A stretch of 64,000 bases of DNA from Neolewinella xylanilytica (GTDB taxonomy: Bacteria; Bacteroidota; Bacteroidia; Chitinophagales; Saprospiraceae), in contig NZ_PTJC01000005.1 in NCBI RefSeq assembly GCF_002934605.1, positions 1,550,001 through 1,614,000 of the forward strand, read 5' to 3'. Of this stretch, positions 44,486-56,520 are shown in pieces. The notes below the pieces were generated by a model. That model saw only the letters and a program-made list of their open reading frames with translations, did no database searches and was not told the origin of the DNA. Positions within the stretch are counted from its first letter, which is position 1, and every line of letters begins with the position of its first letter. The position numbers and the translations under genes were made by a program.

Positions 44486-47400
44486 TTATTGTAGTAACAA
44501 CGCATTGACCGCGGAAGTGCCTTCCGCGCGGATTTGAATAAAATACGTTCCGGCGGGGAGATCCCCCAAAGCGCTTTCCAACCGCTGCGGGCCGGCGCTT
44601 AGTTGTCCGTCGTAAAGGTTACGGACCGGCCGGCCCATCAGGTCGAGCAACCGTACGTTCACCGGGGAGGCACCCTCTAGCGTGAACGTAGTCACTACTT
44701 GCCCCGCCGTCGGGTTCGGACTGAGGGTGAAGCGGAAACGGTCGACCGCAAGGTCGTTGGTAGCGGTGAGCCGACCACCGTCCCGGGCCACGTCCTGCGA
44801 CAGGTACAGGTGGTATTCCCCCGGCGCGAGCTCGATCGCTGCGGCTGGATCGATTACTTCCAAGGTTTGTCCGCCGAAGTAATCGTACCAGGTGCCCGCC
44901 CTTGGGAACGGATTGGCTACCGTTCTGCTTGTTACGCCGAAATTACCGATCACCGCCGCCGCGCCATCGGCACTACTGAGGTGGACGTATTTGGTTTCCC
45001 CGGCAAAACTGGCGGAGGTCACCTCCCCGTGGAAGTAATCGTAGTTATTACGGACGTACAGTAGGTCCGCGATCGTGTGGTACAGGTCCTGTCGGTTCGG
45101 ATCGTCCCGGTACTCCCAAACGATGGGCTTCGGGCCGGTCCGGCAGGGCTCGCTGACGGTACCGTCCTCGCAGTAATTGATTGGGTAGTCGTAGCCGAGT
45201 TCACCGAACTGCCACAGCATCTTCGGGCCGGGCAGGCTATAAAAGAAGGCGGAAGCGAGTTCCGCTCGGTCGAGCGCCGTAGGCAGTTCGGTGATGTCGT
45301 AGCTCCCGCTGCCGTTGCCGAACTGCACGTTTTTGTAGACCATGCGCTCCTCGTCGTGGCTTTCCATGTAGGCAAGCAGGCTAGGCTGTTCGAAGCCCCG
45401 GTTGTCGGCCAGGGCGGAGGCGAAATCGGATTTGCTGTCCTCGTTATAGCCCATCGCACCCTCCAGGTAGGCGTCGTGGGGTTGGCCGCCCGACCAGAAG
45501 TACATTCCCTTGCCGTACTGCGCCAGTTCGTTCTCCTCCCGGCTTTCCCCGAGGTGCTCCATGATGACGTAGGCTTCGGGATCCACCGACCAGACCTGGT
45601 CGGCGTACTCCTTGATAATCGCGACGCGGGACGCATCGTAGGCATTCCAACCGGGGATGTCGGTACTTACATTCTGGGTGAAGCCTTTACTCAGGTCGAA
45701 ACGGAAACCATCCACGTGGAATTCCCGCAGCCAGTAGGCCAGGGTGGTCTTCACGTACTCCCGGGTCAACGCGCTTTCGTGGTTCAGGTCGCTGCCTACA
45801 TTGAAGGGATGGCGGGCGGTCACGTTGGCGTAGGGGTTATTCGGTCCGGGGTAGAACGACTGTTCTCCGGGCCACATCCCGATCAGCGGGCTCTCCCCGA
45901 AGGCATGGTTATAGACAACGTCCAGAATGACGGCTATGCCCCGCTGGTGGGCGGCGTCGACGAACCGCTTCAGGCCTTCCGGTGCCCCGTAGTACTTATC
46001 CAGCGCCATGTGAAAACTCACGTTATAGCCCCAACTGATGTTCCCTTCGAATTCGGTGACGGGCAGCAGTTCGATCGCGTTGACCCCCAGGCGGGCCAGG
46101 TAGTCGATGGTATCGGTCAGGGTCTGGTAGTCGTGGGCGGCGATAAAGTCACGAATCAACAACTCGTACACGACCATCCGTTCCGGGTCTGGTGCCTCGA
46201 AGTCCGTAACGGTCCAGTCGTACGCCGGTGCATCCAGGCGGACCCAAGTGAGTATCCCGTCCGCCTTCTCCGAGGGGTAGGGGGGGATACCCGGAAAGGT
46301 CGTCTCCGGGATGAAGGGGTCATCGTCCGGATCGAGTACCAGGGTACTGTAGGGGTCCGCGAAGCGGCCGTCGTCGTCAATGGCGTACTGGTACAGCAGG
46401 TCTTCCGCCGGCAGGTCTTCCGCTTCGATTTTGAGCCAGAAGGAGGTGTCGTTGGGGGAACGCACCATCCGGGATGCGGCCGTCGGCGACCAATTGTTGA
46501 AGTTGCCCACCACGAATACGTCGGATTTTTGCGGCGCGCGCAGGTGTAATAGCATTCCCCCGTCAGACGTAGGGGTGGCTCCGGGACGAGCGTCATCCGG
46601 AACCGCGGCAACCTCCGGAGATCCGGTGATGAAGGTAACGGTGGTGTAGGCGGATGCTCCCAGGTAAGTAGCCGTAATGGTGTAGGTAGTGACGTCACCC
46701 TCCGGTAGCGTCACCGATTCGGTAACGGTAGCGGAATTGGTCGTGGCGATCACGGTGGTGCCGTCCGAAATTTCCAGATCGGCCGTGACGTAGGAAGTCG
46801 CTGCAATGGTGTACGCTTCTCCGGGATCAGCCTGGATAACCGAACTACCGGGAGCCGTGAGATCCACCACGAGTTGGCCGCTGATCCGAAAAGAATCGGC
46901 TGCTGCTTCGGTGTTGTTGCTCGCCACCGCCCGGATAGTGTGCATCCCCGGGGTAAGTAGTCGTACGTCGTAGGACAAGTCCGTAGCCGTGGTAGTCGTC
47001 AGCAGGCTATCGTTATCGTAAAGCGATATGGTGGCCTCCGAAGTGGTACCGACCGTCACCGGCAGTGGCCGTCCGAGGGCGTAGGTCGGGGTTCCCGGGT
47101 TGCCGGCCAGATTAATGGCCAATTCGGAACCATTGCTGACGGCTACGAAGATGTCGGCGTTACCGGTGGCTTTGCCTTCCCGGTTGCCGGTGGCGTCCCG
47201 GAATACCAGGGCCAGCCGCAGGATATCTTCCGCTTCGGGTACATTGAAGTATTCCCGAAGACTGGGGCTGAAGGTGTAGGTGTAGGTATTGGGCGCGCCG
47301 TCGACGGGGCTGAGCTTCCATGCTTCGTTGGCTTGTCCCCACGTGGTGGCCGTATACCGCCATTCCACGTCCGTGGCGCTTTCGGAAGTAACCACTCCGG

Positions 47401-47575
47401 TGTGCAGGTAAACGTCGCAGTTGCAGTCGTTGAGCCCGCCGGTGCCGAGGCTGGCATCAAAGGTTATGGTGAGGGGTTGGTCGGCGACCGGCGCGGCCGG
47501 ATTCGTCGTAATAAGTTGGGCGTTTGCAAGGGCTCCGGCCACAAGGACCAGCATGAGGGTAAAGATTTGGTGCAT
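44486..47575 (-). CDS. Secreted multidomain GH13 alpha-amylase with T9SS C-terminal signal
   Basis: A 1029-aa enzyme: signal peptide (MLVLVAGALANAQ), two N-terminal beta-sandwich modules (about 20-290), a glycogen-binding E-set/CBM48-like domain (VFVVGNFNNWSPTAASRM, residues 350-450), the GH13 barrel (about 470-830), and a C-terminal beta module. Catalytic residues are in DGFRFDLSKGF (nucleophile), VIMEHLGE (acid/base) and YMESHDEERM. The last about 80 residues (RFTLSPNPTAGQVVTTF, then LPAGTYFIQI) are a type IX secretion sorting domain, so the enzyme is exported through the outer membrane and probably anchored. It would degrade starch-like polymers outside the cell. Confidence 0.93.
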   Translation of the reverse strand: MHQIFTLMLVLVAGALANAQLITTNPAAPVADQPLTITFDASLGTGGLNDCNCDVYLHTGVVTSESATDVEWRYTATTWGQANEAWKLSPVDGAPNTYTYTFSPSLREYFNVPEAEDILRLALVFRDATGNREGKATGNADIFVAVSNGSELAINLAGNPGTPTYALGRPLPVTVGTTSEATISLYDNDSLLTTTTATDLSYDVRLLTPGMHTIRAVASNNTEAAADSFRISGQLVVDLTAPGSSVIQADPGEAYTIAATSYVTADLEISDGTTVIATTNSATVTESVTLPEGDVTTYTITATYLGASAYTTVTFITGSPEVAAVPDDARPGATPTSDGGMLLHLRAPQKSDVFVVGNFNNWSPTAASRMVRSPNDTSFWLKIEAEDLPAEDLLYQYAIDDDGRFADPYSTLVLDPDDDPFIPETTFPGIPPYPSEKADGILTWVRLDAPAYDWTVTDFEAPDPERMVVYELLIRDFIAAHDYQTLTDTIDYLARLGVNAIELLPVTEFEGNISWGYNVSFHMALDKYYGAPEGLKRFVDAAHQRGIAVILDVVYNHAFGESPLIGMWPGEQSFYPGPNNPYANVTARHPFNVGSDLNHESALTREYVKTTLAYWLREFHVDGFRFDLSKGFTQNVSTDIPGWNAYDASRVAIIKEYADQVWSVDPEAYVIMEHLGESREENELAQYGKGMYFWSGGQPHDAYLEGAMGYNEDSKSDFASALADNRGFEQPSLLAYMESHDEERMVYKNVQFGNGSGSYDITELPTALDRAELASAFFYSLPGPKMLWQFGELGYDYPINYCEDGTVSEPCRTGPKPIVWEYRDDPNRQDLYHTIADLLYVRNNYDYFHGEVTSASFAGETKYVHLSSADGAAAVIGNFGVTSRTVANPFPRAGTWYDYFGGQTLEVIDPAAAIELAPGEYHLYLSQDVARDGGRLTATNDLAVDRFRFTLSPNPTAGQVVTTFTLEGASPVNVRLLDLMGRPVRNLYDGQLSAGPQRLESALGDLPAGTYFIQIRAEGTSAVNALLLQ

Positions 47576-47688: not shown

Positions 47689-48414
<726 letters not shown>

Positions 48415-48586
48415 AATGAGGAAGAAAATGGATAAAACAAATGGTAATGTTGAAGGCAATGCCTAAATAGATATTGTAAGCAAAATCAGATTATACGGTA
48501 GCCAACTCCAAAACCGTGACAGAATAATTAAAAAACAACATTCATCCGAAATGTTCCGGACAGTTGCAAAAATAAGCCCTAAATAG

Positions 48587-50096: not shown

Positions 50097-50747
50097 TTAT
50101 TCAAGCTCGGCGATGACGGTTTTATTGCCCTTTACCTTCTGGCCGATCTCGACCCGGAGGCGGGTACCGATCGGAAGGAAAAGATCAACCCGACTACCGA
50201 ATTTGATAAATCCGAAATCTTCTCCCTGAACCACCTGCTGGCCCTCCTCCAGGTAGTTTTTGATGCGCTTGGCCAACGCGCCGGCGATCTGTCGCAGCAG
50301 GATCTCCGTTTCGCCGGTGTCGATGACCACGGTGGTGCGTTCGTTCTCCGTGCTGCTTTTGGGGTGCCAGGCAACCAGGTATTTTCCGGGGTGATATTTA
50401 TTGTACTTCACCAGTCCGCTTACGGGGTTGCGATTGACGTGCACGTTCACCGGTGACATGAAGATGCTCACCTGCAGCCGTTTGGCGCGAAAGTATTCCG
50501 GTTCGTAGGCCTCCTCGATGACGACGACCTTTCCGTCGGCCGGGGCGTAAACCAGGTGGTCCGCTTCCTCGGGCACCATGCGGCGGGGATTGCGGAAAAA
50601 CTGGAGAATAGTGAGGAAAAATAGACCGGCAGCGATTGCCACGATCGGCAACTGAGCCGGAGCTTTCCAGGCCACGAGGCCGACGATCAGGCCTAGGCCG
50701 ACGAAGAGTAACGCCAACATCCGGCGACCTTCCGGATGTATTCGCAT
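50097..50747 (-). CDS. psd: Phosphatidylserine decarboxylase, short (PSD-A-like) type
   Basis: A 216-aa pyruvoyl enzyme that makes phosphatidylethanolamine. The ATG at 50747 (MRIHPEGRRMLALLF) is chosen over an upstream TTG. Two N-terminal helices anchor it in the membrane. VYAPADGKVVVIEEA, VSIFMSPVNVHVNRNPVSG and the self-cleavage region FIKFGSRVDLFLP (Ser becomes the pyruvoyl group; GSR replaces the LGST of the long form) are visible. The length fits the short class. TAAAGATA (50847-50854), a near -7 element in reverse, lies about 100 bp upstream. Confidence 0.93.
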   Translation of the reverse strand: MRIHPEGRRMLALLFVGLGLIVGLVAWKAPAQLPIVAIAAGLFFLTILQFFRNPRRMVPEEADHLVYAPADGKVVVIEEAYEPEYFRAKRLQVSIFMSPVNVHVNRNPVSGLVKYNKYHPGKYLVAWHPKSSTENERTTVVIDTGETEILLRQIAGALAKRIKNYLEEGQQVVQGEDFGFIKFGSRVDLFLPIGTRLRVEIGQKVKGNKTVIAELE

Positions 50748-50759
50748 GGGTTTACGCAA

Positions 50760-51125: not shown

Positions 51126-51133
51126 TACCTTTG
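51126..51133 (+). promoter_or_regulatory. -7 element of the LysE - acyl-CoA dehydrogenase - deacetylase/methyltransferase transcript
   Basis: TACCTTTG, an exact TAnnTTTG, 22 bp before the ATG at 51156. A matching TTTG at -33 is not evident. It argues against the longer GTG start at 51138. Confidence 0.55.
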
Positions 51134-51155
51134 GGCGGTGGAAACCTTGAACGCC

Positions 51156-51764
51156 ATGCTACTTGGGCTGGCCGCCGCGGCCGGGGCGACCTTGCTTCCG
51201 GGCATGTTGAATATGACCAGCGTGAATGTCAGCCTCCGGGCCGGCCGTCGGACCGCCTACATCTTTGCCCTGGGAATGGCTACCACGGTGCTGCTTCAGG
51301 CCGGGATCGCCGTGTTTTTCGCCGGCTTCCTGAACGACCACGCTTTGGTGGTGGATGCCCTGCGGCAGTGTGCCATCCTGGTCTTTCTTTTCCTGTCGGC
51401 TTTCTTCCTCTTCAAGGGTATCCGCGCCCGGGTCGCGGAGGCTTCCCAGCCCGATCGGCCCTACCGCGGAAGCCCCTTCCTGCGGGGCACGTTGCTGGCG
51501 GTGATGAACCTCCTCACGGTGCCTTATTTCTTTGCTACCAGTGGCTGGTTTCTGGCCAATGGATCGCTGCACGACACGGCCCTGGCCCGGATAGTCTTTG
51601 CCGGGAGCGCCGGCGTCGGTGCCCTGGTCATCTTCATGGGCTACGCGCGGGCGGCCCACTGGATGCACCGAAACGCCAGGTTCGTGACCCGGAACATCAA
51701 CTATTTGCTGAGCGGCCTCCTGCTCGTGTTGGCGGTAGCGCAGGGACTTCGTCTCTATTTCTGA
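51156..51764 (+). CDS. LysE/RhtB-family exporter
   Basis: A 202-aa, six-helix membrane protein (ATG 51156, MLLGLAAAAGATLLPGMLN). The LysE fold is recognised by the G-x-x-x-x-P-G-x first helix (AAGATLLPGMLNMTSVNVSL), RAGRRTAYIFALGMATTVLL and the C-terminal hydrophobic pair. Members export amino acids or small amphipathic metabolites. It is the first gene ahead of an acyl-CoA dehydrogenase and a deacetylase/methyltransferase fusion on the same strand, 70 bp upstream, and could export or handle their product. Confidence 0.82.
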   Translation: MLLGLAAAAGATLLPGMLNMTSVNVSLRAGRRTAYIFALGMATTVLLQAGIAVFFAGFLNDHALVVDALRQCAILVFLFLSAFFLFKGIRARVAEASQPDRPYRGSPFLRGTLLAVMNLLTVPYFFATSGWFLANGSLHDTALARIVFAGSAGVGALVIFMGYARAAHWMHRNARFVTRNINYLLSGLLLVLAVAQGLRLYF

Positions 51765-51834
51765 CCCACCGGGCCGCGATGGCTAATTTCGAGAACGGCA
51801 AACATTGGGCGGGTCGCGGGGATTTGATTGGCAT

Positions 51835-52950
51835 ATGTCAGCTAATGTCAACACCGGGGAATTTCCCTCCCCGAATGCGATCGGGCAAGGGGTCAAAAAC
51901 CAGTTTAAGGAGTGGGCGGCGGAGACCTTCGCCCACGGCGGATATCCCGCATCGGAGATGGGTGTACTGGCCAACGCCGGCCTGCTAAGCTGTATGCTGC
52001 CCGGCGAACCGCTGGATCTCACCGCCCCGGGGCGGGGGAAACTTCTCGAGCTGTTGCGAACCATCGGGGAAGGCAATCTTTCCGTAGGCCGCATCTACGA
52101 AGGGCACGTAAACGCTATACAGCTAATCGCGCTTTACGGCACCGAGGCACAGCGACAGCGCTACTTTACGGATGCCCGTCGGGGCCACGTATTCGGGGTC
52201 TGGAATACGGAAATGGCCGATGGCGTCCGCTTCCATCCGGCACCCACCGGCTTGCGGGTCTCCGGGAGCAAATCCTTTTGTAGCGGATCCATTCACGTGA
52301 CGCGCCCCATTATCACCGGGCAACTGGCGCCGGGCGGGAATACGGCCGGCGGTTGGCAGATGGCCGTCGTCCCACTGGACAAGCACCAGCCACCGGTGGA
52401 CCGCACCTTCTGGACCACTACCGGAATGAAGAACAGCGTCAGCCATAAGATAGACTTTACCGACATCCATCTCGCAGCGGACGACCTGCTGGGGCAGCCG
52501 AACGACTACAACCGCCAACCCCACCTGAGCGGAGGAGCCGTACGTTTCGCGGCCGTTCAACTCGGCGGGGCGGAGGCGATCCTGCACGCCACCCGTACCT
52601 ACCTTCGGCAGATGGAGCGGACCGCAGACCCCCACCAGCGGATGCGATTAGGACAGATGGTGATTGGGGTGGAAAGCGGCAAACTATGGCTCCGGAGAGC
52701 AGGAGAAATGCTGGACAGCCAACCGGACGCCGACGCCATCGTGAATATGGCCAATCAGGTCCGGACGGCCATTACCGGTTACTGTAAAGAATGCCTCGAG
52801 TTGTCCGACCAGAGCGTCGGGGCACGCGGCATGCTCCCCCCCCAGCCCCTTGCCCGACTGCACGCCGATCTACGGGTGTATTTACGTCAGCCAGCTCCCG
52901 ACGCTACCCTCGGCGCGGTCGGTCAATACTTTCTGGATGGAGCATCCTAA
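51835..52950 (+). CDS. Acyl-CoA dehydrogenase-like flavoprotein
   Basis: A 371-aa member of the acyl-CoA dehydrogenase fold. ATG 51835 (MSANVNTGEFPSPNAIGQG) is chosen over the frame open from 51805. It has the helical N-domain (LLRTIGEGNLSVGRIYEGHV), the beta-domain with GVWNTEM in place of the usual A-x-TE motif, and the C-domain (VRFAAVQLGGAEAILHATRT, VGARGMLPP). No canonical catalytic Glu at the family position was placed, so the activity may be unusual. It overlaps the fusion gene that follows by 14 bp. In distant bacteria similar proteins lie beside PIG-L deacetylases and NodS-like methyltransferases (recalled, not checked). Confidence 0.85.
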   Translation: MSANVNTGEFPSPNAIGQGVKNQFKEWAAETFAHGGYPASEMGVLANAGLLSCMLPGEPLDLTAPGRGKLLELLRTIGEGNLSVGRIYEGHVNAIQLIALYGTEAQRQRYFTDARRGHVFGVWNTEMADGVRFHPAPTGLRVSGSKSFCSGSIHVTRPIITGQLAPGGNTAGGWQMAVVPLDKHQPPVDRTFWTTTGMKNSVSHKIDFTDIHLAADDLLGQPNDYNRQPHLSGGAVRFAAVQLGGAEAILHATRTYLRQMERTADPHQRMRLGQMVIGVESGKLWLRRAGEMLDSQPDADAIVNMANQVRTAITGYCKECLELSDQSVGARGMLPPQPLARLHADLRVYLRQPAPDATLGAVGQYFLDGAS

Positions 52951-54310
52951 CCTGAACCCGGAGCGGCTGGAGGAAGCTAAGCGCCGCCTCTATTCGGAGG
53001 TTCCCCCCCACCCGGCGAGCGATTTACTTGCCTGGCAGTCCACGGTAATTTTTTCTCCTCATCCCGACGATGAGTCGCTGGGGTGCGGGGGCCTCATCAG
53101 CCAACTGGGCGATTACGGCAAGGACGTGCGGGTCGTGTTCGTGACGGACGGGAGCATGTCCCACCCGAACTCCACCAAGTTTCCGCCGGAGGCCAGGGCG
53201 GCACTGCGGCGGGAAGAGGCCCGGAAAGCCTGTTCGTTACTCGGTGTAGGCCCGGACCGGGTGTTTTTCCTCGCCTTACCCGACGGTCAGGTTCCCTCCG
53301 AGTGGGAGCCCACCTTTTCCGGGGTGGTTTCCGACTTGGTAGCCTTGATCGCGCCGTGGGGGGTGGATACGTTCGTGGTGCCGTGGCGACGCGATCCCCA
53401 CGAAGACCACCGCGCCACGTGGGAAATCTGCCGCAGCGCCGCCAACCGCTTGGAGCAACCACTCCGGTGGGTAGAGTATCCCGTTTGGATGTGGGAGGCC
53501 CGCAATCTCGTCGACTTGCCGCGGGAAGAAGAAGTAATCGGCTGGGGGCTGGAAATCGAAAACAAGCTAGCGGTGAAGGAGGCGGCCATCCGGGCCCACG
53601 CCTCCCAGTGGCTGGGGGTGATCGACGACGACCCCGCCGGCTTCCAACTGCCGGAGGAAATGATCGCCAAGTTTCTACGCCCCCGGGAGGTCTACTTCGT
53701 GCCACCGGACAAACGCTACCGCAGCCTGGATAGCACCTACTTCGATGAGGTGTATCGGGACGGAACCGACCCCTGGAACTTCGAAACCAGCGCCTACGAG
53801 CGGGATAAATACGCGGCTACCCTGGCTGCCCTGCCGGATGCCCGCTACCGGCGTGCGTTGGAGATCGGCAGTTCCATCGGGGTGCTCAGTGAAGGGCTGG
53901 CGGCGCGGTGTGATGCGCTGGTCGGCGTCGACCCGGTAGCGAAAGCCCTCGACGTGGCACGTGCCCGATTGCAAGATCATCCGGCGGTATCCTTTTTACG
54001 GATGAGCGTGCCCGACGATTTCCCGGATGGGGCGTTCGATCTGGTGGTCGTTTCGGAAGTAGGTTATTACTGGAGCCGGGCCGACCTGGAAAAGGCCATC
54101 GACCTCATCGGGAAAGCACTGGAGCCGGGGGGCGTATTGCTGCTGGTCCACTATACCCCCTACGTTCCGGATTATCCCCTCACGGGTGACGAAGTGCACG
54201 AGGCCTTCAACCAACGGCTGACCGGCTTTTACCGCGTACGCGCGGATCGCGCCGATCGGTATCGGCTGGACGTATGGCGGAAAGAACGGGCTGATGGCCA
54301 CTCCGCGTAA
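52937..54310 (+). CDS. Fused PIG-L (LmbE) N-acetylglucosaminyl deacetylase and NodS-like SAM methyltransferase
   Basis: A 457-aa two-domain enzyme. The ATG at 52937 overlaps the previous gene by 14 bp. Residues 1-250 are a zinc-dependent PIG-L deacetylase: HPDDE at 42-46, VFVTDGSMSHP, and DPHEDH at 153-158, giving the His/Asp metal ligands. Residues 265-457 are a class I methyltransferase: DPWNFETSAYERDKYAATLA (279-298) is a NodS hallmark, SAM motif I is ALEIGSSIGVLSEG, and VVSEVGYYWS is motif IV. The deacetylase would remove N-acetyl from a GlcNAc unit and the methyltransferase could methylate the resulting amine, as NodB and NodS do successively in Nod factor synthesis. The fusion itself makes that channeling plausible. 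Substrate unknown. Confidence 0.92.
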   Translation: MEHPNLNPERLEEAKRRLYSEVPPHPASDLLAWQSTVIFSPHPDDESLGCGGLISQLGDYGKDVRVVFVTDGSMSHPNSTKFPPEARAALRREEARKACSLLGVGPDRVFFLALPDGQVPSEWEPTFSGVVSDLVALIAPWGVDTFVVPWRRDPHEDHRATWEICRSAANRLEQPLRWVEYPVWMWEARNLVDLPREEEVIGWGLEIENKLAVKEAAIRAHASQWLGVIDDDPAGFQLPEEMIAKFLRPREVYFVPPDKRYRSLDSTYFDEVYRDGTDPWNFETSAYERDKYAATLAALPDARYRRALEIGSSIGVLSEGLAARCDALVGVDPVAKALDVARARLQDHPAVSFLRMSVPDDFPDGAFDLVVVSEVGYYWSRADLEKAIDLIGKALEPGGVLLLVHYTPYVPDYPLTGDEVHEAFNQRLTGFYRVRADRADRYRLDVWRKERADGHSA

Positions 54311-55415
54311 AGGTGCGCAGTTCCTGAATAGCCACCTCAAAGGTCCGGTCGGAGAAGGAGTGGGTACGCTCGATCCGCTGCCGTATATCCAGGTAGAGTG
54401 CCCCGAAGGTCGTTGCCTGGACGATCGTCCGCTGGAGTTCGCCGGGAGAAAGCTCGAGAAATGCGGCGAGCGTGAATATGGCGGGAAGGCTACCGATCCG
54501 GCGCTCGTAAAACGCACGTCGTAGAGCTACCTTCCACTTATAGAGATCGATGCAGTGCTGCAGGCCGAAGACTACGGGACGCCGGTTTTCCTTTACCATT
54601 TTAGCCCATTCCTCCAGACTTTGGCTGAAGGTGACGCCCTCGATCCGGTTGCTGACCCGGTCGGAGGTATATACCCGCACGGCGGGATCGTGCACCGGTT
54701 CCACGTCAATCCGTTCGAGGGCCCACGCGAAGGCGGCGTCTTCGATGGACCGGAGGGGTGGCATACCGCCGCTAGCAACATACGCTTCCCGGGAAACCGC
54801 GAGGCTGGGGCCGTAATGCTGGAAATGCCGCGGCCAGGGGTCCTGAATACTCGGGTCGATCATGCACTCCAGCAGGGCACGGAGGCTGCGGTAGGTTACG
54901 TCCTGCAGGTGAATCTTGCGATAGTCGCGGCGACCGTTCGGCGGCACCAGTATGCGCCCCCCTACGGCCCGTGCGCCCCGTCCGAAGGCCCGTAGCGTAG
55001 CCGCGATCCAGTGAGGATCGACGACCGTATCGGCATCCGTCATGGCGATGATGCCACCCTCCGGCAGGCGCCGGGCGGCTTCGTCCATCATTAGTTTCCG
55101 GGCCACGCCCACACAGGCCTGGGCGTCCGGAAGGTCGACTTCGATGACGTGTATTGGCACCGCGGGGTATTCGTCCGCTACCCGTCGCGCCACGGCGGCG
55201 GTGGCATCGGTGCAATTATTAGCGAGCACCATTACCTCATAAAGCGATGGATCTAGCCGGCTGCCGTCGAAATCCAGCTGGTTTGCCAATGCTTCCAACG
55301 TAGGCCGTAAGAAGGCCGCTTCGTTTTTGGCAGGAATGGTTACGCAGAATTTGCAGCTCGGCAGTACCGGGGGCAGGCAAACGGGGATCACCGGCGAAAA
55401 ATCATGATGTGACAA
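54207..55415 (-). CDS. GT2 glycosyltransferase of the deacetylase/methyltransferase cluster
   Basis: A 402-aa enzyme without clear membrane helices. FCVTIPAKNEAAFLRPTLEA is the nucleotide-sugar N-terminus, VMVLANNCTDATAAVARRVA follows, and the metal-binding DxD-like motif is MTDADTVVDPHW. GGRILVPPNGRRDYRK and SGGMPPLRSIEDAAFAWALE (with the catalytic ED pair) support an inverting GT2. It is convergent with the fusion gene, and their 3' ends overlap by 104 bp, unusually long. ATG 55415 (MSHHDFSPVIPVCLPP); an additional short start after the VCLPPVLPSC stretch cannot be excluded. Confidence 0.88.
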   Translation of the reverse strand: MSHHDFSPVIPVCLPPVLPSCKFCVTIPAKNEAAFLRPTLEALANQLDFDGSRLDPSLYEVMVLANNCTDATAAVARRVADEYPAVPIHVIEVDLPDAQACVGVARKLMMDEAARRLPEGGIIAMTDADTVVDPHWIAATLRAFGRGARAVGGRILVPPNGRRDYRKIHLQDVTYRSLRALLECMIDPSIQDPWPRHFQHYGPSLAVSREAYVASGGMPPLRSIEDAAFAWALERIDVEPVHDPAVRVYTSDRVSNRIEGVTFSQSLEEWAKMVKENRRPVVFGLQHCIDLYKWKVALRRAFYERRIGSLPAIFTLAAFLELSPGELQRTIVQATTFGALYLDIRQRIERTHSFSDRTFEVAIQELRTFTRSGHQPVLSAIRPADTDRRDPRVRGKSRSAVG

Positions 55416-55524: not shown

Positions 55525-56520
55525 CTAATCCTGGTTGCCGACGACCTGTACCTCCGGCTCCAGGTCGACGCCGAACTTTTCCGCTACCGTCTCCTGCACG
55601 TGACGGCTGAAGGCCAGAATATCGCCTCCGCTGGCGCCGCCGCGGTTGACCATCACCAGAGCCTGGCGTTCATAGGTGCCTACGCGTTCGTTTCCGGCAC
55701 CCCGCAAACCGGCCCGATCGATCAGCCAGCCGGCGGGGAGTTTCACGTAGGCGTCGTCGATGGGGTAGGCAGGCAGGTCGGCATACGTCTCGCGGAGATT
55801 TCCGTAGTGGCTTCGTTCGACGACCGGGTTTTTAAAGAAGCTGCCGCTGTTGCCCAGGAAGAACCAGTCCGGGAGTTTACTGCGTCGAATATGCGTGACC
55901 GCGTTGGCGACGTCGCGGGGAGTAGGATCGGTGATGCCGGCGCGTTCCAGTTCTTCGGCAATAGCCCCGTATTCCAGTTTGAGGGGGCGTCGTTCGCTGA
56001 GGTTGAAGTCGACGGCCGTTATGAGAAAGCGACCGGGCTCCCGCTTGAAGCGGCTGTCCCGGTAGCCGAAGGCGCAGTCTTCGGGGGTAAGTTCGACCAT
56101 TCCCTTACCGTATTCCCAGGCGTGGACGGCGGTGATGAACTCCGCTACCTCCGCCCCGTAGGCGCCGATGTTCTGGACCGGGGCGGCGCCGACCGTGCCG
56201 GGGATGAGGATGAGGTTCTCCATGCCCGGGCAGCCCCGCTCCAGCGTATAGCGTACGAACTGGTTCCAGTCGGTGCCGGCGCGGACGCGGAAGCGGCCAT
56301 TTCCGTCCGTGGACTCGATGCCGCTAAGCAGCACGTGAACGGTCAGCCCGGGGATTCGCTCCAGCAGCACCAGGTTGCTGCCGCCGCCGAGGACGAGGGC
56401 GGGCTGTTCGGTAAATGCCTCCCCGGATAACTGGCCGACATCGGTCAGGGCCAGGTACCGTTCGGCGATGGCGGGTAGCCCGAAGGTATTGTAGCGTTGT
56501 AGGTTAACTCCTTCTCTCAT
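55525..56520 (-). CDS. murB: UDP-N-acetylenolpyruvoylglucosamine reductase
   Basis: A 331-aa FAD enzyme that makes UDP-MurNAc. Motifs are NTFGLPAIAERYLALTD, LGGGSNLVLLERIPGL (FAD-binding), LILIPGTVGAAPVQNIGAYG, SGSFFKNPVV (catalytic Ser) and the C-terminal Glu in DLEPEVQVVG. It is type I length. It follows the ABC exporter with a 4-bp overlap, so the two are co-transcribed; both serve the envelope. Confidence 0.97.
   Translation of the reverse strand: MREGVNLQRYNTFGLPAIAERYLALTDVGQLSGEAFTEQPALVLGGGSNLVLLERIPGLTVHVLLSGIESTDGNGRFRVRAGTDWNQFVRYTLERGCPGMENLILIPGTVGAAPVQNIGAYGAEVAEFITAVHAWEYGKGMVELTPEDCAFGYRDSRFKREPGRFLITAVDFNLSERRPLKLEYGAIAEELERAGITDPTPRDVANAVTHIRRSKLPDWFFLGNSGSFFKNPVVERSHYGNLRETYADLPAYPIDDAYVKLPAGWLIDRAGLRGAGNERVGTYERQALVMVNRGGASGGDILAFSRHVQETVAEKFGVDLEPEVQVVGNQD

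Follow-up and report, generated by a model that had tools for sequence, protein, structure and literature searches.

Among the described gene sets closest to the locus considered here are the Nod factor genes nodB, nodC and nodS and a group of genes in Acinetobacter baumannii, ACICU_02432-02435, annotated as a glycosyltransferase, an S-adenosylmethionine (SAM)-dependent methyltransferase, LmbE and a protein related to acyl-CoA dehydrogenases (ACADs). These four are shown as a single operon, and their levels fall by a factor of 31 to 62 in two mutants that depend on colistin, with otsA, otsB and a catalase gene also among the 33 lowered genes (PMC5660220). The same genes are drawn next to blsA, which codes for a BLUF photoreceptor, or to a relative of blsA (PMC9020721, PMC6240043), and a gene for a DUF2171 protein falls together with katE, otsA and otsB (PMC11348943); from a plasmid locus and PMC9020721 we infer that this gene is the neighbour of the operon in that strain. 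Here we describe a related set of genes in a 64,000-nucleotide stretch of Neolewinella xylanilytica DNA (the window; assembly GCF_002934605.1, contig NZ_PTJC01000005.1, positions 1,550,001 to 1,614,000), comprising genes for a flavoprotein of the ACAD fold, for a fusion that joins a PIG-L deacetylase to a NodS-type methyltransferase and, in convergent orientation, for a family 2 glycosyltransferase (GT2). This is a real, conserved cassette that carries no name, and in the literature searched, which included few subscription papers and some sources in part, we found no publication that gives it a function. We put at about even the chance that it is a mobile cassette, shared across phyla, for making a small and probably cytosolic amino-sugar glycoside for stress protection.

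The original prediction had placed four genes at this site, and all four are open frames at the positions concerned, each scoring above its Pfam cut-off. A LysE-type transporter (51138..51764, plus strand; Pfam LysE 37.6 bits, cut-off 25.6) is followed on the same strand by the ACAD-fold flavoprotein (51835..52950; Acyl-CoA_dh_1, PF00441, 34.2 against 22.4 bits; PF02771, 24.9 against 22.9) and by the fusion of 457 residues (52937..54310), while the soluble-looking GT2 lies on the minus strand (54207..55415; Glycos_transf_2, 51.5 against 23.3 bits). The 3' end of the ACAD gene overlaps the start of the fusion by 14 nucleotides, and the fusion and GT2 genes overlap tail to tail over 104 nucleotides (54207..54310). 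The start of the fusion was corrected to ATG 52937, its M1 being an invariant column across 23 aligned relatives, and that of the ACAD to ATG 51835; the start codon of the GT2 (TTG 55415) is unsure.

Presence across 60 genomes, the source genome included and 21 of them from the genus, separates these genes into a module and a bystander. The near full-length fusion is found in 10 of the 60, all within the genus (10/21), and both the GT2 and the ACAD are found in the same 10 genomes; for the ACAD a genome of another family gave one further, weak match at 26% identity. The chance of a single partner landing on the same 10 of 21 genomes is 2.8e-6, kinship ignored. We conclude that ACAD, fusion and GT2 form a real three-gene module. 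LysE, which had been expected to co-occur with the other three families and to export the product, is present in 20 of the 21 genus genomes. It neighbours murB in the four module-less genomes examined (of 11) and in G019, where the module is on another contig, with a spacing of 40 to 175 nucleotides in four of these five genomes and about 800 nucleotides in G002; in the other nine module-bearing genomes, the window included, the module sits between LysE and murB. Since LysE adjoins murB without the module, the module either entered at the site next to LysE or disappeared from that place. LysE is thus a bystander; the presence pattern and these genomes lead us to reject it as exporter of the product. 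One observation cuts against this rejection: in A. baumannii a LysE-family gene is drawn on the opposite side of blsA from the operon (PMC6240043). Thus the predicted co-occurrence holds strongly for three of the families and fails for the fourth.

We examined the spread of the cassette by scanning with an alignment of 23 fusions, which retrieved at least 549 relatives, and by inspecting the loci of the best 80 of these; ACAD and GT2 played no part in selecting them. An ACAD match (E up to 1e-3) is present in 78 of the 80 loci, and in 74 it is the gene immediately upstream, in the same orientation. A GT2 match is present in 72 loci; it is convergent and no more than 5 kb away in 62, on the same strand within 1 kb in eight, and upstream in two. 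The PIG-L and methyltransferase parts are fused in 35 loci, separate but adjacent in 41, and of a state not called in four. LysE was found in six of the 80, all Neolewinella or Lewinella. By our own assignment the loci span Bacteroidota, Cyanobacteriota, Actinomycetota, Acidobacteriota and Verrucomicrobiota; the Actinomycetota versions have a distant ACAD (E 1e-4 to 1e-21), or none in two loci, and a GT2 that is weak or not found. Plasmids add Deinococcota and Pseudomonadota, giving seven phyla in all, and bear out the remark in the original prediction that a similar set occurs in Proteobacteria. The fusion matched 88 plasmid records in PLSDB, of which 23 cassette loci were examined. Gene annotation was available for 19, in tables that PLSDB describes as incomplete; in the remaining four (W15, W16, W20 and W22) the cassette position is that of a tblastn match alone. 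The ACAD gene stands in a row with PIG-L in 17 of the 19 annotated loci, the exceptions being L104 and L119, and no LysE-named gene appears in these incomplete tables.

Several local variations were seen among these loci. Foreign genes lie inside the cassette row on two Deinococcus plasmids, a TnpB gene between ACAD and PIG-L in L102 (6484-7836) and a DEAD/DEAH helicase gene in L120 (5246-7858). In a Leeuwenhoekiella metagenome-assembled genome (L048, 1194-163) the ACAD and fusion genes point away from each other, and the GT2 is closely followed by a catalase gene. In Actinomycetota a convergent gene of about 400 codons recurs, overlapping or following the cassette (L055 11077-12189, L060 11035-12345, L082 11104-12324, L092 11206-12435); it gave no Pfam match in L055 and L060 and no NCBIfam match in L060, and may be a non-coding frame.

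The fusion carries a PIG-L domain (PF02585, 53048..53440, plus strand; 95.6 bits, cut-off 28.2), not a NodB-type polysaccharide deacetylase, and a NodS-type methyltransferase domain (PF05401, 53759..54139, plus strand; 55.9 bits, cut-off 24). The putative metal site of the former comprises H42, D44, D45 and E46 with H155, D157 and H158, and the putative SAM site of the latter E309, G311, S313 and G315. In 65 fusions, selected from the 120 listed of 602 matches, H42, D44, D45, H155, D157 and H158 are invariant, as are all four SAM-site residues. The predicted structure of the fusion has a predicted local distance difference test (pLDDT) score of 94.6, and the structures closest to it are NodS and chitobiose deacetylases. 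Amino-sugar deacetylation followed by methylation, as originally proposed, is therefore still the natural reading of this protein: we think it rather probable, judging from these residues and domains, that it deacetylates an amino sugar and then methylates the freed amine, on nitrogen in preference to oxygen. This would be the safest step of the pathway, because the two domains are fused (35/76) or adjacent (41/76) and both resemble enzymes acting on chitin-type amino sugars. The fusion scores 67.9 bits against the NCBIfam equivalog model for NodS, below the cut-off of 300, and a tree of the methyltransferases was unresolved, with long branches, so that nesting of NodS among the cassette methyltransferases was not obtained. 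A defence system was considered and rejected, the one PADLOC match, mad2, being confined to the methyltransferase half. The source genome has four PIG-L matches in total, only one of which is the fusion.

For the flavoprotein, we compared 30 ACADs of the cassette, selected by us from the sequences collected. In all 30 the catalytic glutamate of the YEGT motif is replaced by glutamine, whereas one ordinary ACAD has the glutamate at this motif position; an ordinary acyl-CoA dehydrogenase is thereby made unlikely. The monooxygenases DszC and TdsC, to which the protein is about 20% identical, are the best matches by profile and by fold, with MsuC next by sequence and profile, and the scores for the NCBIfam equivalogs are below cut-off (SfnB 66.3 against 430.9; DszC 62.2 against 850). 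Taken together, sequence and modelled fold suggest that this protein, a candidate for the group D flavin monooxygenases, is not an acyl-CoA dehydrogenase but probably an oxygenase that depends on flavin. Enzymes of the nitrososynthase type (3m9v and 4kcf, which we take to be KijD3, DnmZ, and 3mxl) score weakly in the profile search, with E values from 1e-6 to 7e-4, and none figures in the 50 fold matches listed, so that oxygenation on nitrogen is speculative. On the Deinococcus radiodurans plasmid (L120, 2190-4529) the ACAD carries an N-terminal extension some 400 residues long that gave no Pfam match (at 0.001) and no PDB sequence match (at 0.1); a stand-alone homologue of this extension lies just upstream of the ACAD gene in L067 (716-1798), and others occur in L046 and L024.

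The GT2 had been likened to NodC. It lacks both the QxxRW motif and the C-terminal membrane helices that were found in a NodC control, and a NodC-like synthase was rejected on these grounds; it has a single borderline hydrophobic stretch (residues 9-27) and gave no PDB sequence match. Most likely it builds the glycoside. The Pedobacter, Novosphingobium and Paracoccus versions of the cassette have extra glycosyltransferases, which suggests further extension of the product in some lineages.

The recurring plasmid context of the cassette is stress defence, not signalling. Catalase (PF00199) and OtsA (PF00982) were picked for a first linkage test after the neighbours had been read, and 6 of 14 plasmid replicons have one or the other at most 8 kb from the cassette, where random placement expects 1.07 (six was reached in 0 of 20000 placements). 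As this choice of families was made post hoc, a held-out list of nine plasmid matches and the rule to be applied were fixed before their loci were retrieved. Five of the nine have catalase or OtsA near the cassette, against 0.46 expected (0/50000); all five positives are catalase, and one of them has OtsA as well. Three of the 23 plasmids are from Acinetobacter. Removal of one or other of these from the first set leaves 5/13, attained in a fraction of 0.00015 of placements, and the held-out set without Acinetobacter gives 4/8 against 0.25 expected (4/50000). The nodS loci L113-115 and L116, not being the cassette, were excluded from both tests. Annotated neighbours of stress type include, locus by locus, Ku with LigD and RpoH; a general stress protein; catalase with LigD; CsbD; a DNA starvation protein; a manganese catalase with a universal stress protein; and Ku with Hsp20. 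On a Comamonas plasmid otsA, ACAD, PIG-L, methyltransferase, GT2 and otsB follow one another on one strand. Several of the genera that carry the cassette are known for tolerance of drying or radiation.

A cassette found beside stress-defence genes in many bacteria may make a protective molecule, and we slightly favour such a role. Some observations weigh against it, or against its generality. Four of the first 14 plasmid loci have no neighbour of stress type, and OtsA by itself falls short of significance in the held-out set (1/9, reached in 6860/50000). The 80 genome loci contain KatE-type catalase in two cases, OtsA in none and Dps-like ferritins in four, and OtsA is present in 12 of 13 genus genomes whether the module is present or absent. 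Trehalose as the general precursor was accordingly set aside, since in the genus OtsA does not follow the module, and none of the 80 loci has it.

A pathway that would accommodate these features begins with the soluble GT2, which would transfer an N-acetyl-amino sugar onto an acceptor that is itself soluble. The PIG-L part would then strip the acetyl group from the sugar and the NodS-type part would methylate the amine so exposed; fusion or adjacency would couple these two steps. The DszC/TdsC-like flavoprotein would most likely oxygenate, perhaps the product or its aglycone. A bolder version, which we regard as a long shot, is that the product is an undescribed general stress metabolite of bacteria: a small glycoside, perhaps on trehalose or another compatible solute, with an amino sugar that undergoes deacetylation, N-methylation and, through the ACAD-fold flavoprotein, N-oxygenation of the kind that nitrososynthases carry out on amino sugars, to give a protectant of hydroxylamine or nitrone type against drying and oxidants, with the cassette moving between phyla and NodS possibly an offshoot of its methyltransferase.

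Other products can be envisaged. The original prediction, a Nod-factor-like pathway to a sugar that is methylated and de-N-acetylated, possibly carries a lipid and is exported, named the right genes in the wrong frame: a NodS-type methyltransferase and a deacetylase do stand with a GT2 alongside, but with LysE a bystander, a GT2 unlike NodC, and an ACAD that lacks the catalytic residue of a dehydrogenase and matches DszC and TdsC best, there is support neither for export or a lipid part nor for a synthase like NodC. The neighbouring proteins were also scanned, non-exhaustively, and contained no acyltransferase, NodA-like or otherwise; we consider this pathway very improbable. That the ACAD is nevertheless a true dehydrogenase, with an acyl-amino sugar as the compound modified by the cassette, draws on dehydrogenase fold scores close to those of DszC and on the existence of ACADs with the base placed elsewhere, but the uniform glutamine and the order of the best matches make it improbable.

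A methylated amino sugar might instead be attached to a polysaccharide, lipopolysaccharide or glycolipid of the cell surface; this would fit the extra glycosyltransferases of some versions, an Omp85-type gene that recurs beside the cassette in Hymenobacter loci, and window flanks that code for MurB, an MsbA-like ABC protein and LpxB. However, the scanned neighbours include no recurrent polymerase, flippase or polysaccharide exporter, and the murB-side flank is also found in genomes without the module, so that we hold this explanation to be unlikely. A pathway to a low-molecular-weight thiol or other redox cofactor would follow the logic of bacillithiol and mycothiol, in which a glycosyltransferase is followed by a PIG-L deacetylase. 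It appears quite improbable, as the fusion falls far below the cut-offs of the relevant models (BshB2 49.3 against 195.25; BshB1 46.2 against 182.5; MshB 22.4 against 224.35), no cysteine ligase was seen among the scanned neighbours, and methylation of the amine would be expected to block the usual coupling of cysteine.

The genes around the module lie outside it. On the minus strand these are murB (55525..56520; NCBIfam 367.9 bits, cut-off 277) and a gene for a phosphatidylserine decarboxylase family protein (50097..50759; NCBIfam 272 bits, cut-off 225). Further off on the same strand the window encodes an alpha-amylase-type protein of 1029 residues (44486-47575), the C-terminus of which resembles a Por secretion sorting domain (26.2 bits, just below the cut-off of 27), and an RRM protein with a long glycine-rich tail (47689-48459).

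The database names of the cassette genes, acyl-CoA dehydrogenase and nodulation protein S, are misleading. If a stress-protective glycoside is indeed the product, the cassette would supply a missing piece of bacterial survival chemistry, and amine methylation of the NodS type would extend beyond symbiosis.

Comparison with known systems places the cassette near several of them. It shares with the Nod factor genes nodB, nodC and nodS (Rhizobium etli p42d, L113) amino-sugar deacetylation and methylation alongside a GT2, and a methyltransferase of the NodS family (PF05401); it differs in having a PIG-L in place of a NodB-type deacetylase, a GT2 without QxxRW or C-terminal membrane helices, and an added ACAD, and no NodA, NodI or NodJ was seen beside it. 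The Sulfitobacter indolifex plasmid L116 (4399-7479) provides a parallel for the same three activities, with GT2, NodS-type methyltransferase and polysaccharide deacetylase in one protein, although the deacetylase is of the PF01522 type instead of PIG-L and no ACAD is annotated in the stretch shown. The diacetylchitobiose deacetylase of Pyrococcus (PDB 8bgn, 4xm2) is 25-27% identical to the cassette enzyme, which is fused or adjacent to a methyltransferase, and the LHDP stretch of DszC reads LRQP in the flavoprotein. Finally, the blsA-side operon of Acinetobacter (ACICU_02432-02435) carries the same four annotations in one operon, and differs from the locus described here in that PIG-L and methyltransferase are separate genes and the GT2 is annotated inside the same operon.

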